Assembly (NCBI GenBank): GCA_020055645.1
Contig: CM034548.1
Span: 25,966,201-26,030,200 of the forward strand
Origin: Tomocerus qinae
Lineage: Eukaryota; Arthropoda; Collembola; Entomobryomorpha; Tomoceridae
Direction of reading: 5' to 3'
Length of the DNA: 64,000 nucleotides
Position numbers and translations under genes: made by a program. This document shows positions 6,540-32,081 of the stretch, piece by piece. Under the pieces are notes generated by a model. It was not told the DNA's origin. It saw nothing but the letters and a program-made list of their open reading frames with translations, and did no database searches. How positions within the stretch are numbered: the first letter of the stretch is position 1; each line of letters starts with the position of its first letter.

Positions 6540-6948
6540 ACTAGGCCACCAGTACTATTTCTGAATTGCAAAATGATTAGGCATACTAACATTGTTAAAT
6601 TTCGGAATATGCTAGCTAACGTTCACTAATATTGTACTTTCATTTTTATGTGATATCAGGGCATGAAAAAGGCAAAAAGCTACCTTTTTGCCTCTTTGCC
6701 TTTTTGCTTGCCTTTTTGCCTAGCAAAATCAGCAAAAAGCTTCAATGAAGTTTCATAGGTGGCGGCGGCTACTCCAAAAAGGCAAAAAGGTAGCAAAAAG
6801 GCAAATAGGTAGCAAAAAGGTAGCAAAAAGGCAACCTTTTTCATGCCTTGTGTAATATGCATTGTATACGCGCATGTGTATTGCAACAAAAATTCGCAAA
6901 GTCCATGACATACATACATACATAGTTAGATACATGCGACATAGGAAC
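6540..6948 (+). repeat. Dispersed repeat copy B, interrupted by the MITE
   Basis: Begins ACTAGGCCACCAGTA. It is broken at 6657-6850 by the hAT-like MITE and resumes with ATGCATTGTATACGCGCATG at 6857. It then runs through CATA-type simple sequence to about 6948. The first part aligns with 5330-5405, and the part after the MITE aligns with 12799-12890. It belongs to no family I recognise. A tail containing a tetranucleotide microsatellite is common in arthropod retroposons and MITEs. Confidence 0.6.
6657..6850. mobile_element. hAT-like MITE with 16-bp terminal inverted repeats
   Basis: A 194-bp non-coding element. The left end CAGGGCATGAAAAAGG and the reverse complement of the right end, CAAGGCATGAAAAAGG, match at 15 of 16 positions. 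Flanking octamers TGTGATAT (6649-6656) and TGTAATAT (6851-6858) match at 7 of 8, the 8-bp duplication expected of hAT transposons. The interior is built of GGCAAAAAGGTAGC-like words in both orientations, so the element folds back on itself. Removing it restores continuity with the related repeat at 12.7 kb. The 79- and 65-residue open frames across it are low-complexity by-products. Confidence 0.75.
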
Positions 6949-12249: not shown

Positions 12250-12625
12250 AAACGTGCTTTCCAGGAAAAACTTTTTCCTAGTTAAAATCTTGCTTCTCCG
12301 GATAAAATTTATTAGCATAGCTCTAAATTTATTAGCATAGCTCTAAATTTATTAGCCTCTATAGCTCTAAATTTATTAGCCTCTATAGCTCTAAATTTAT
12401 TAGCCTCTATAGCTCTAAATTTATTAGCCTCTATAGCTCTAAATTTATTAGCCTCTATAGCTCTAAATTTATTAGCCTCTATAGCTCTAAATTTATTAGC
12501 CTCTATAGCTCTAAATTTATTAGCCTCTATTATAGCCTCTATTTTTCTGAATGAAAAGCTTGTTTTTCCGGATAGAAAATATGTTTTCCGGATGAAAGTG
12601 TTTGTTTGCTTTCCTGGTTTAGAAG
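12250..12625. repeat. TTTTCCGGAT-type degenerate repeat flanking the minisatellite
   Basis: Words such as TTCTCCGGATAAAA (left) and TTTTTCCGGATAGAAAA and TTTTCCGGATGAAA (right) recur at about 20-bp spacing on both sides of the 24-bp array. The array therefore appears to have grown inside an older, degenerate repeat of about 20 bp. Confidence 0.4.
12321..12535. repeat. 24-bp minisatellite
   Basis: About eight head-to-tail copies of a 24-bp unit, CTCTAAATTTATTAGCCTCT plus ATAG, start at 12341. They are preceded by a 20-bp variant in which GCCTCTATAG is shortened to GCATAG, and part of another. Copies are nearly identical, so the array expanded recently. Because 24 is a multiple of three, the minus strand reads as repeating IEANKFRA, producing a 116-residue open frame that I do not regard as a gene. 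Confidence 0.9.
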
Positions 12626-12715: not shown

Positions 12716-12890
12716 ACTAGGCCCCCAGTACTAATGTTTAATCTTCGTTTAAGCTAAGCAAATGTTCCCTCATATTGGACTTGCTTGTTTTATGAACTAT
12801 GCATTGTATACGCGCATGTGCATTGCAACAAAAATCCGCATAAGCCATGGTACAGATAGATAGATGGATAGAGACATACGCCATCATAGC
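12716..12890 (+). repeat. Dispersed repeat copy D, uninterrupted
   Basis: Begins ACTAGGCCCCCAGTA. At 12799 it carries ATGCATTGTATACGCGCATG followed by a stretch nearly identical to copy B for about 50 bases (a handful of differences). It then has a GATA-type microsatellite at 12854-12872 and the ending GACATACGCCATCATAG. It lacks the MITE found at the equivalent point of copy B. Confidence 0.6.
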
Positions 12891-25000: not shown

Positions 25001-26740
25001 TAAAGCTGTTTGAGCCGTCCGTAGCAAATCGGCGAAACGGAATGCAAATGTAGAAAGTAAGATGCTTCCCCTTTGTTATTACACTGCACGCAAATCAATA
25101 TCTGGTAAAACATGAACATGCCAACTTTCAGCATATGTATGAACAACTAATGAATATTATTGTTTTCTCATTCTATCTACTTTTCTCCATACTTAACACA
25201 TCGAAAATGAAATAATAAGGTACCTAGAACCTTTTTGCTTCTTAATCTGGGGATGTAACCCGAGTCAGTTAGTTATTGCTACAGGTAGGTGGGTATAGGT
25301 TAGATAATGGGTAGCACATAATATGATTATACGTAAATAGCAGGTAGTTTAGGTAAATCCCATCTTCTGAACAAAGCATGCGAACAAAATAACAAACCAT
25401 CTGCTTTATTATTTTCTAATAGTTGCTTCAGTCAGTGTATGGCTTCAGGGTTTTGTAATAATTAACATGGCCGTACTATCAGCACAATGCAATGTTTTAT
25501 GCATTTCCATCCTTTGGAATTTAGTTGATACCGAGTTAAATAAATGCTATGTGTATAAAGTACTTTTTCGTTAAAAGTTTGACTGGTTTACGCTTGCACT
25601 CACTCCTTTACTTAGCTGAGTTAGGTTAGGACTGAGCGAGATAATTGAAAAGTTGAGTAGTAGTAGTACATTACGTGTGCTGCAAAATGAACTTTGCTTG
25701 CAATTCTCACAGCAATAATAAACATTTGTTAATGAGAGGCTGAGTAATTGATAAAGAAATATAAATGATAATTCAGTACTTCTCCCAACTAATGGCATTA
25801 TATTTAAGTTCCAATTTACAGAAAAACTAGTTTTTTTCGTTCGAAATGAAAGTTCAAGGATTAGTCTCCAACTTGTTCAGTCTTCTTCATGTCCATATCT
25901 GTTTAAGGATGGACGAAATACTACACGAACACATATACACAATTATCTGAACATATCTCTATATCTTATTATACAATAGAGTACAAGACATTATCTTTTA
26001 GTTAACTTATGTTATAAGACACCTAGAACTGAAAACGACAAGGTAACTACATACCTAGGTATCTGTAGAATAATATGAAAGAAATGGATGAATGGGTGCG
26101 CAGACAAGACAGACAGAACTATCTCCCTTAACTAAACTGAACACAGTACATTTACCATTTTCCAAGTCATAAGTATTATATTATAGTCTAAAATTCTAAC
26201 ATTTGAGCACATATCATGAATCTCTAATGTAATATAATGCATAGAGTCTCTGCATATGTAGTATTTCATTAGGTCATAGTCATATGTGTAAGAGAGCTCT
26301 ATACCTATATGTGATGAATGTAAAGACCAAAGGAGGCAAACCACGAACTAACTCTCGTAATAATATTATTATTATAATTCCAGTCCCATAGTCTGCTCTA
26401 TAGACATCGTATGCACAATACCTACAAGTACTAGTCTCAAAACCTGGTAACTGCATGGTGAATATTTAGAGATTGGGTTCCATCTTCGGCCATTCTTCTC
26501 ACAAATCAGCCCTACCCATTTTCATGGGGAAACTTTCGACTCGACTGAATTTAAAGTTCTCTGCTCTCCTCAGCAAAACTTCATGAATGAAAACTTGAGC
26601 CACACACTGTCTCCTCATAATCTAATATGCGTTAATACTAATATTCATTTTATGTAGTATTCTAACAAACCATCCACAACATTCAACCGATGTACATGTG
26701 CAGAAACTCATTTCGTCTACAATGAAATTGCATAAAATAC

Positions 26741-26921
26741 TGTCGCGGTGTTGGTATAATGTGAGACTTGGAAGTCTCGAGGATAGACTAGGCTTGTTGA
26801 TTGTGTAAGAAGGTAATAAGCTCGTGCTTAGCTCAGTTGGAAGAGCATCGGTCGCGTTTACCAGAAGGGCGGGGGTTCGAGTCCCTCAGCCGGGCTTTAC
26901 TTTTTACACATCAACTCGACA
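26741..26921 (+). repeat. Left LTR of the TRIM
   Basis: 181 bp, identical at every position to the right LTR 267 bases downstream. It contains a TATAAT-like word at 26755-26760. A perfect hairpin, GAGACTT-GG-AAGTCTC, lies at 26763-26778. The tRNA-like unit starts near 26822, and a T5 run at 26901-26905 could end Pol III transcription. The last bases CGACA mirror the first five, TGTCG. Confidence 0.9.
26822..26895 (+). ncRNA. tRNA-like (tRNA-Thr-related) sequence in left LTR
   Basis: Folds as a degenerate tRNA. Acceptor arms 26822-26828 and 26888-26894 pair at five of seven positions, one of them a wobble. The D stem GCTC/GAGC and the T stem GGGGG/CCCTC with loop TTCGAGT are intact. The A box TAGCTCAGTTGG is at 26829-26840 and the B box GGTTCGAGTCC at 26874-26884; both fit Pol III consensus. 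The anticodon loop reads CGCGTTT, so position 33 is G rather than the universal U. The triplet in anticodon position is CGT, which with the flanking bases suggests tRNA-Thr(CGT) ancestry. The missing U33 and the mismatched acceptor argue against a working tRNA; it is better read as a captured Pol III promoter or structure. Confidence 0.75.
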
Positions 26922-26940
26922 TGGTGGAGATGGGTTTTCG
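26922..26940 (+). promoter_or_regulatory. Putative primer-binding site of the TRIM
   Basis: Begins TGGTGGAGATGGG immediately after the left LTR. The leading TGG would pair with the CCA tail of a tRNA, and the complementary tRNA end would read CCCATCTCCACCA. I could not match this to a specific arthropod tRNA from memory. It does not match the 3' end of the element's own tRNA-like unit. Confidence 0.6.
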
Positions 26941-26971
26941 GTCCCCGTATTTTCTCATAGGAGGAGCGGGT

Positions 26972-26989
26972 GAGTGCGTGGAAGCACTC
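26972..26989 (+). other. Perfect hairpin in TRIM interior
   Basis: GAGTGC and GCACTC form a perfect 6-bp stem with loop GTGGAA. It takes up a fifth of the 86-bp interior, between the primer-binding site and the purine tract. It could be an RNA packaging or dimerisation structure, but nothing in the sequence proves that. Confidence 0.5.
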
Positions 26990-26990
26990 T

Positions 26991-27006
26991 GAATAAAAAT
27001 GGGAAG
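26991..27006 (+). promoter_or_regulatory. Putative polypurine tract of the TRIM
   Basis: A purine-rich run ending ATGGGAAG, one base before the right LTR. This is where an LTR element needs its plus-strand primer. Two T residues interrupt the wider run, so the functional core is probably the last six purines. Confidence 0.55.
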
Positions 27007-27007
27007 T

Positions 27008-27188
27008 TGTCGCGGTGTTGGTATAATGTGAGACTTGGAAGTCTCGAGGATAGACTAGGCTTGTTGATTGTGTAAGAAGGTAATAAGCTCGTGCTTAGCT
27101 CAGTTGGAAGAGCATCGGTCGCGTTTACCAGAAGGGCGGGGGTTCGAGTCCCTCAGCCGGGCTTTACTTTTTACACATCAACTCGACA
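27008..27188 (+). repeat. Right LTR of the TRIM
   Basis: 181 bp, identical to the left LTR, including the hairpin, the tRNA-like unit and the T5 run. It is followed immediately by ATAC, the copy of the 4-bp target duplication. Complete identity implies insertion too recent for a single substitution to have accumulated, or recent gene conversion. Confidence 0.9.
27089..27162 (+). ncRNA. tRNA-like sequence in right LTR
   Basis: Exact copy of the left-LTR unit, shifted by 267 bases. The A box is at 27096-27107 and the B box at 27141-27151, with the same non-canonical anticodon loop. A T5 run follows within about 10 bases. Confidence 0.75.
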
Positions 27189-27640
27189 ATACCTACATCA
27201 CTCAAGTTGATGTAAAATAATTCCATGATTTTTTTGTACTTTATTTGTGATTTTGTGTATTTTATTATTATGATTCGGTGTCTAGGCACATATTTGCTAG
27301 TATTAGATGATGAAATCGGGTTAACTATATTTAGGCTATCTGAATAGTTAATTTATTATGAAAACACATAGGAGCACGAAAATTATTGTCTTATCTGCGT
27401 ATATTATTATCTCAGTCACCAGTGTCTTCTTCTTTTCCCTTTCCATGGTAAGTAAAATGTAAATGAATTCAAAGCAAGCGCAAATTAACTACTCATGAAT
27501 AACTAAATGAAAAACTGATTAGGATGAAACGTAAATCAAGAAGATGAAACGCATACTACGAAAACCCATAAAATCATTTATATCTTCCATTTCATCATGT
27601 ATATATCCCATCCCAATTGGGTACATAAACTATGGCTTAT

Positions 27641-30204: not shown

Positions 30205-31800
30205 CTACGACATGTATAAGCTCTCGCATTTTGAAATTTGATCAAAGACACGATCAATGCGGCGATTAAGAATCTTAATAGACTTATCTGGAATCATCGG
30301 GAGATAGTCTACAAGAGCGGGCTCTAAACTCTGGAACATTGTTTTGAGATGGTGGCCGACGTTCTTGTCCCGATGAAGTCGTTTGACAGCTTCTGCCGTC
30401 GACCGACGAAATACACACAAAGAGTCCAACATAATTCGATGATACTGCTCGTACTTGTCCAAAAGTCTGTAACCGTGGAGAAGACCACTCTCATTGTCTA
30501 AAAATACTAAAAGTCCAGATGACACATCTTTGGCTAAGTTATGGGCAGGAGCCTCCATCATTGAGGGATTCCATTGTAAATTGTACAGATTGTTGACCAT
30601 TCTGTCAAGATTGGCAGTTAAGTAGTCAAACACAATTAAATCCGACCATTGAGCCAATTCTGTTGTGTCCAGCGAGGAGGAGTCCACTGAATTTGCGGAG
30701 AGAATTAAGTCAATGGGATGGAGTCGACGTGTCGAATCTCGGAACGGCGCCGGGATGTATGCGGGAGATAAATTCGGAATGAAACGGGTCAAAACAACAG
30801 GTTTTTCTTCTGCCCACTGGGCTAAATTCAGTTGCTGACGAACTGGAGTCCATTTGGAATTCAGTGGCTGGATTAAATCTAGAGCCGACGGAGCCAGATT
30901 CCTCAGATTTAGCAGTTGGCTAAGGTAGAAACTGAAAATCTCTCCCTGGATCTGATCGAAATTCTGGCGGTAGCGACAACAAGCTCGAGTTCCGTTTCCA
31001 AGAGTCAACAATCTGTTTTGCATTCGCCCACATCCCTCTTCAATTTTGGACACGGCGGACTCTCCTACAAACCGTCTCCAGGATTTCAACTCGTCATCGG
31101 TGAAACCTTTCGGAAGTTTCTTCTCCACCTTATCACTCCAGTAGATCCCATCTACATATTCATTCTCACTGTCGTCCAGAACTGGAGACGTCGACTCCTC
31201 TTTGCTCTCAGCCAGAGGGGATATGGTCACAGGCGGAATAGTGAAATTGTAGCGAGCCTGAGGGACCTCTTGCTGAACGGGATGCAGAGACAGGATGCGG
31301 GAGTCCGGAGCAACAAACTGAACATTTGGACTCGGTCTCCGAAAGACAGGGTATCCGGACTGCTTTTCATTTTGATTTCTCAGTGCTTGTATTTGTGCAA
31401 ACTCGGGGAAACGACTGGAGACACTATCCGGGCTCGAGTCCTCTTTAAAATAAAAGTTTTTCTCACTGGAAGTACTAAAAGGCTTAATCACAGACTGAGG
31501 AGTTTGAGTCAAAGGCTCGTATGAGATTGGCTCTGTGGAAGACAAACTGCTCTGACCCATCGTGTCAGAGCTCACAGGCAAAAAATACAGTGGGATCAGA
31601 ATGCCTATTCCAATCCCTATGCAAAAGGCTAATGAGGCTGTCAGAAAACAAAGGCCTTTCAAAGTACGCCCTGTCCGCACAGGGAACTGGGGATTAAAAC
31701 AACGGGAATGTCCAATCATTCTCGAATTGTGGGTCCTCTCATCTAGAATCACACTCTCCACTCCTGAGCCACAATGAAAACATGAGCACAATTCCAGCAT
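30205..31800 (-). CDS. fj: Four-jointed, Golgi Ser/Thr kinase of the Fat/Dachsous pathway (FJX1 family)
   Basis: A single uninterrupted frame encodes 531 residues, ending in TAG at 30205-30207. In this family the protein is a type II Golgi membrane kinase that phosphorylates Ser/Thr in cadherin repeats of Fat and Dachsous, tuning planar cell polarity and growth. Seen here: a short cytosolic tail; one hydrophobic anchor at about residues 49-74, including an alternating Gly-Ile run; a low-complexity Ser/Pro/Gln-rich stem at about 75-215; then the conserved lumenal kinase region. Diagnostic blocks are EGCGRMQNR near 255-263, GEIFSFYL at 286-293, the catalytic-loop-like FDYLTANLDR at 391-400 (Asp392, Asn397, Asp399) and the metal-binding-type Asp435-Asn436-Glu437. 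Possible N-glycosylation sites are Asn185 and Asn269. Start: the ATG at 31800 has A at -3 and G at -1, with an in-frame TAG at 31816-31818. The reading frame also holds a GTG six bases upstream, which is not a credible eukaryotic start. Met28 is a weaker alternative. Lack of introns matches fly fj and vertebrate FJX1. Confidence 0.96.
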   Translation of the reverse strand: MLELCSCFHCGSGVESVILDERTHNSRMIGHSRCFNPQFPVRTGRTLKGLCFLTASLAFCIGIGIGILIPLYFLPVSSDTMGQSSLSSTEPISYEPLTQTPQSVIKPFSTSSEKNFYFKEDSSPDSVSSRFPEFAQIQALRNQNEKQSGYPVFRRPSPNVQFVAPDSRILSLHPVQQEVPQARYNFTIPPVTISPLAESKEESTSPVLDDSENEYVDGIYWSDKVEKKLPKGFTDDELKSWRRFVGESAVSKIEEGCGRMQNRLLTLGNGTRACCRYRQNFDQIQGEIFSFYLSQLLNLRNLAPSALDLIQPLNSKWTPVRQQLNLAQWAEEKPVVLTRFIPNLSPAYIPAPFRDSTRRLHPIDLILSANSVDSSSLDTTELAQWSDLIVFDYLTANLDRMVNNLYNLQWNPSMMEAPAHNLAKDVSSGLLVFLDNESGLLHGYRLLDKYEQYHRIMLDSLCVFRRSTAEAVKRLHRDKNVGHHLKTMFQSLEPALVDYLPMIPDKSIKILNRRIDRVFDQISKCESLYMS

Positions 31801-32081
31801 CGTCACTATTGAGATCTACTGTACTTCCACAGTAGGCCGCACTTGTAGCTGTCAGCACAACTTCTGAATGTCTTCACAAAAATGATTGTGACAGAAATAG
31901 AAATGGCGAAATGGTCTGACAATGAGTATTAGCTCAACACTTGAGCAAATTGGCTCCCGGATATTCACGTCCCACTTCCAATGCTACAGTCAGCGATGAC
32001 AAAAGAGCGATGGAGTTTGGAACTTGGTCAATAATAAAACGTATATTATAGGTGTGTACTCTATCCAAAGAATAGAACTGT

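Follow-up and report, generated by a model that had tools for sequence, protein, structure and literature searches.

The 448-bp segment at positions 26741-27188 of the window, by which we mean the whole 64-kb stretch of DNA that was analysed, is a complete, non-coding element organised as LTR, interior and LTR, and it is almost certainly a tRNA-bearing TRIM, whatever transcribes it. The full explanation, in which it is a full-length, non-autonomous Helenus-type LTR retrotransposon that is transcribed by Pol III and served by a Gypsy-type helper, we consider probable. Helenus was defined by Kojima 2024 as the TRIMs with tRNA-derived sequence in their LTRs (PMC10886601), and judged by that published description the element seems to add a member to this recently named group, not a new type of element.

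As listed in Table 1, the element is bounded by two 181-bp repeats that begin with TGTCG, finish with CGACA and enclose an interior of 86 bp. An earlier note made on this DNA had described this arrangement and called the repeats identical; we found them 100% identical over 181 nt. The perfect ATAC target duplication it had proposed was likewise borne out, as the motif stands directly outside both repeats, and at this base composition two chosen sites would agree over 4 bp by chance with a probability of about 0.006. That the LTRs do not differ at any of their 181 bp points to a recent insertion or to recent gene conversion, and judging from this identity the 448-bp element is probably young and recently inserted. 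A purine run had also been placed at the end of the interior, and the tract there, the candidate PPT, is indeed purine-rich, but it is interrupted by one T and parted from the LTR by another (AAAAATGGGAAG, then T). The longest listed frame lying wholly within the element encodes 63 aa, runs across the tRNA-like unit, U5 and the interior, and is spurious; used as a query for relatives among predicted proteins, it drew no candidate similar enough to receive a score. Elsewhere in the 64-kb window there was no second copy of the LTR or of the interior, the leftover matches being 10-20 nt long with E above 0.5; exact patterns of the LTR and of the LTR/PBS junction gave 0 matches in viral and prokaryote contigs, collections that are expected to hold little arthropod DNA and that may leave out the genome of the window itself, so that these zeros carry little weight. 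No autonomous partner came to light among six chosen ORFs of the window, whose Pfam scan gave no match to a retrotransposon protein. The U3 region contains an inverted repeat, GAGACTT/AAGTCTC, which recurs at 27030-27045 and is possibly a protein-binding site or an RNA hairpin.

Table 1. Features of the element and its immediate flanks, in positions of the window
Feature	Position	Strand	Basis
Left TSD ATAC	26737..26740	.	flanking sequence
5' LTR, 181 bp, TGTCG...CGACA	26741..26921	+	100% identity to 27008-27188
U3 inverted repeat GAGACTT/AAGTCTC, two 7-nt arms, 2-nt spacer	26763..26778	+	sequence; predicted hairpin; again in 3' LTR
Upstream arm able to pair with 26896-26921 around the tRNA-like unit	26795..26819	+	folding against shuffles
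tRNA-like unit, 5' LTR	26820..26895	+	ARAGORN 26822-26895, anticodon CGT; Rfam
A box TAGCTCAGTTGG	26829..26840	+	pattern match
B box GGTTCGAGTCC	26874..26884	+	pattern match; within the window in the two LTRs only
T5, Pol III terminator-like, proposed R/U5 border	26901..26905	+	sequence; role inferred
PBS TGGTGGAGATG	26922..26932	+	complementary to last 11 nt of a human tRNA-Ala
Non-coding interior, 86 bp	26922..27007	+	sequence, ORF list
Interior hairpin GAGTGC-GTGGAA-GCACTC, possible RNA signal	26972..26989	+	fold
Imperfect polypurine tract AAAAATGGGAAG plus T	26995..27007	+	sequence
3' LTR, 181 bp	27008..27188	+	identity to 5' LTR
tRNA-like unit, 3' LTR	27087..27162	+	ARAGORN 27089-27162; Rfam
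T5 of 3' LTR, proposed 3' end of genomic RNA	27168..27172	+	sequence; role inferred
Right TSD ATAC	27189..27192	.	flanking sequence

Each LTR carries a tRNA-like unit, which ARAGORN called as tRNA-Thr with anticodon CGT in both LTRs and nowhere else in the window, and whose match to the Rfam model RF00005 spans model positions 5-66 of 71 and scores 31 bits, just above the gathering score of 29. The earlier description of intact A and B boxes in each LTR is borne out by matches to the consensus patterns; outside the two LTRs neither strand of the window shows the B-box pattern again, whereas the A-box pattern has three further occurrences on each strand. Both boxes also match the motifs TRGCY, YGG and GGTTC given by Kojima (PMC10886601). 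The claim that the unit adopts a tRNA fold holds weakly: both ARAGORN and Rfam can fit one, yet at minimum energy the 76-nt unit does not form a cloverleaf. Its fold there consists of a T arm, one long rearranged arm and an acceptor-like stem in which 5 + 3 pairs flank a bulged U. Moreover, working tRNAs have U at position 33, and the base preceding the called anticodon is G. Boxes that are kept while the remaining parts of the tRNA have decayed are what a Pol III promoter might look like, although one copy cannot show selection, and the unit would act as a promoter and not as a working tRNA. We also considered a 5S-type TRIM of the Cassandra or Ajax kind and rejected it, as Rfam reported tRNA in both LTRs and no 5S rRNA in them either at the gathering threshold or at E up to 1. 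Two open frames, 26801-26992 and 27068-27220, span the tRNA-like units; spurious peptides are often predicted over tRNA genes, and these frames resemble such peptides and could be mis-annotated as proteins.

The interior begins with TGGTGGAGATG, and its first 11 nt are complementary (11/11) to the 3' end of a human tRNA-Ala fragment, after which the match stops. The complementarity includes the base opposite U70 of the tRNA, and the G3:U70 pair is the mark of alanine tRNAs. With such a PBS, tRNA-Ala fits as the primer of the element, the comparison being with a human fragment that is labelled AlaTGC and marked 'ambiguous' in its source (PMC10219402) and that may differ from the host's own tRNA-Ala. 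The primers listed for animal Helenus elements, from hymenopterans, vertebrates and bivalves, are Lys, Leu, Trp, Arg, His, Ile, Pro, Glu and Ser (PMC10886601), and since Ala is absent from this list of Kojima 2024 it would be new among them. The sole report of tRNA-Ala priming of LTR retrotransposons that we met in a literature search comes from plants, where tRNA-Ala is among the primers of non-chromovirus Gypsy elements.

The assignment to Helenus, which the earlier note had suggested, is supported at the level of sequence by the features that Kojima 2024 describes (PMC10886601). The element is short (448 bp, where the published screen took lengths under 1000 bp) and protein-less with two LTRs; its LTRs hold a tRNA-like unit with kept A and B boxes; and a PBS of 11 nt follows the 5' LTR. 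The exception is the candidate PPT before the 3' LTR, which is purine-rich but broken. The 4-bp TSD is that of the animal families, whose PBS regions show likeness to Gypsy elements only (PMC10886601), and the tRNA is probably non-functional, as in Helenus. The class had been called rare, and here the claim needs qualifying, since 113 Helenus families are reported from rust fungi, 51 from bivalves and 40 from wasps (PMC10886601). The element differs from published arthropod Helenus in its host, as the arthropods in Table 1 of Kojima 2024 are only wasps (six families), and from the listed animal families in its PBS, which fits tRNA-Ala. No springtail Helenus appeared in that table or among the papers listed in literature searches that cover subscription journals thinly, and a 2026 meeting report among them does no more than cite Kojima's Helenus paper.

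For the host, the clearest gene of the window is a homologue of four-jointed, a Fam20C-like kinase, with an open frame of 536 aa on the minus strand at 30205-31815, which gave a Pfam Fam20C match under the curated cut-off, the only match among the six ORFs scanned. Among the best 120 of 777 matching proteins the organism names were all arthropod. In a 32-row tree the four-jointed protein of the window and four further proteins (P0001-P0004) were sister to five rows including two of Orchesella, a collembolan, with support 97/95, and a 121-row tree built under a simpler model contained the same ten-row group with an SH-aLRT of 99. These matches and trees agree with the arthropod host named before, and on the evidence of this one gene and of the species listed the host is probably a springtail or a near relative. 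The window also contains a tandem array at 12317-12530 (24-bp unit, 9.1 copies, 97% matches), whose minus-strand reading gives a repeated NKFRAIEA peptide, and a 95-bp dispersed repeat at 6848-6942 and 12790-12884 (80% identity), perhaps the remnant of another mobile element.

Among other short elements, Cassandra, a plant TRIM with 5S rRNA in its LTRs, shares with the present element a Pol III-type promoter in the LTR and a predicted super-hairpin of paired LTRs; it differs in carrying 5S instead of a tRNA-like unit, in belonging to plants and not animals, and in being known to be transcribed, whereas our element is known from sequence alone (PMC7215508). Ajax, a nemertean TRIM with partial 5S, also has a small RNA promoter in a short LTR, but this promoter is 5S-derived, the TSD is 5 bp long and the primer is tRNA-Leu (PMC10886601). 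Closer in host is PbTRIM of the red harvester ant, an arthropod TRIM with 4-bp AT-rich TSDs and LTRs of 152-184 bp; its PBS, however, fits tRNA-Leu, and the text of that report available to us contains no mention of a tRNA-derived LTR unit (PMC3532108). A study of bivalve TRIMs reports no clear PBS, and Pol III terms are absent from its accessible text (PMC6934838).

Taken as a Helenus-type retrotransposon, the element would be transcribed by Pol III, which the A and B boxes of the 5' LTR would direct to start at about 26810-26820. A fraction of the polymerases would pass the T5 that follows the 5' tRNA-like unit, as well as two T4 runs in the interior, and the proposed stop is the T5 in the 3' LTR. 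R would then correspond to the tRNA-like unit, about 26815-26905, with a U5 of about 16 nt and a U3 of about 74 nt. Reverse transcriptase and integrase would come in trans from a Gypsy-type element; host tRNA-Ala would prime at 26922, the strong-stop DNA would jump through R, the purine tract would prime the second strand, and integrase would leave the 4-bp duplication. Because the same T5 stands in the 5' LTR and is followed by the two interior T4 runs, a full-length Pol III RNA needs read-through, and the three T4-5 runs that Pol III meets on its way from the promoter to the 3' LTR may halt most of its transcripts early. Read-through of the Pol III terminator is reported for many yeast tRNA genes in a study that ranks 5U as weak (PMC4937561), and a second yeast study found T4 to have almost no activity in vitro except where an RNA hairpin stands directly before it or 7 nt upstream (PMC9278858).

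Folding calculations bear on how the LTRs may behave in RNA. As RNA, the LTR reached -62.6 kcal/mol (z -2.66), and 2 of 200 shuffles were as good. In the predicted structure the sequences on either side of the tRNA-like unit form a helix (26795-26819 with 26896-26921), at a z of -3.09 with 2 of 500 flank shuffles as good, or at a z of -2.84 with 4 of 500 when a longer upstream flank was used. For the arms alone, 13 of 5000 shuffles did equally well, rising to 187 of 5000 once pairing anywhere in U3 was allowed, and the signal is a modest one because the arms were picked after the fold had been seen. In the modelled full-length RNA, U5 pairs with U3, and none of 60 U3 shuffles reached its energy. 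At this modest strength, the predicted pairing of the LTR arms resembles the super-hairpin predicted for Cassandra, in which the LTRs are paired and the PBS and PPT are brought close (PMC7215508). A further idea, to which we give little credence, assigns the U3 arm a role in termination: present in the RNA only once Pol III reaches the 3' LTR, it would extend the acceptor stem into T5 and so create a strong terminator, while the same T5 in the 5' LTR would be weak and read through, and the arms would then pair the RNA ends for strand transfer, in convergence with the Cassandra super-hairpin. In folds of the nascent RNA the helix reaches T5 when the upstream arm is included (-34.9 kcal/mol), later starts give -31.3 (26812), -29.9 (26814-26816) and -28.1 kcal/mol (26820), and without the upstream arm the stem still ends 3-5 nt before T5. 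The idea is weakened because an armless helix ending about 3 nt short of T5 is, by yeast tests, near enough to aid termination (PMC9278858), and because transcripts begun at 26812 or further upstream would already contain a part of the arm.

Transcription is also where the most serious competing explanation departs from ours. It accepts the same TRIM and attributes its RNA to Pol II, with the TATA-like motif at 26755 starting the transcript in U3, a poly(A) signal ending it in the 3' LTR, and the tRNA-like unit travelling as a passenger left by an old SINE insertion into the LTR. The TATAA at 26755 (again at 27022) together with the AATAAA at 26992, just ahead of the 3' LTR, makes Pol II transcription possible; a weak variant, AATAAG, is found at 26815 and 27082, and the T5 and T4 runs would stand in the way of Pol III. 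However, the AATAAA is interior and would direct cutting near the start of the LTR, giving little or no R, and the LTR itself has only the weak variant. The usual distance from TATA to start puts the expected Pol II start at about position 45 of the LTR, and the poly(A) site belonging to the AATAAA at 26992 would fall before or near it. Consensus A and B boxes amid an otherwise decayed tRNA also speak against a passenger, as does the result of a search on both sides of the unit for exact direct repeats of 7-12 nt, a possible trace of SINE insertion, which returned only TTGGAAG, a motif that has another copy inside the unit. We therefore regard Pol II transcription with a passenger tRNA as unlikely, though it is the alternative that deserves most attention.

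The two other explanations we judge to be extremely improbable, each about as much as the other. A tRNA pseudogene or SINE duplicated locally in tandem, with no retrotransposon involved, would agree with the lack of a second copy within the 64-kb window, but it would leave unexplained the TG...CA ends of LTR type, a TSD lying exactly outside both repeats, a PBS exactly at the 5' junction and a purine-rich tract at the 3' junction, and with the LTR pair, PBS and TSD present a tandem SINE was rejected. Functional tRNA-Thr(CGU) genes riding on an LTR element and enlarging the tRNA set of the host would accord with the ARAGORN call of tRNA-Thr CGT and with the prediction that some bivalve and fungal Helenus families encode tRNA-Thr (PMC10886601); the Rfam score of only 31 bits, the G in place of U at position 33 and the minimum-energy fold that is no cloverleaf led us to reject a functional tRNA gene.

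Returning to the element as a tRNA-bearing TRIM of the Helenus type, if the host is a springtail, then Helenus-type elements occur in arthropods beyond the wasps reported. Kojima 2024 favours multiple origins of Helenus (PMC10886601), and the combination of another primer tRNA with a springtail host would, if true, fit such repeated independent origins. For genome annotation, LTR copies may be counted among the tRNA-Thr genes of such genomes. Finally, the intact and apparently young copy described here would be well suited to testing the claim, as yet unproven, that tRNA-like units in LTRs drive Pol III transcription.
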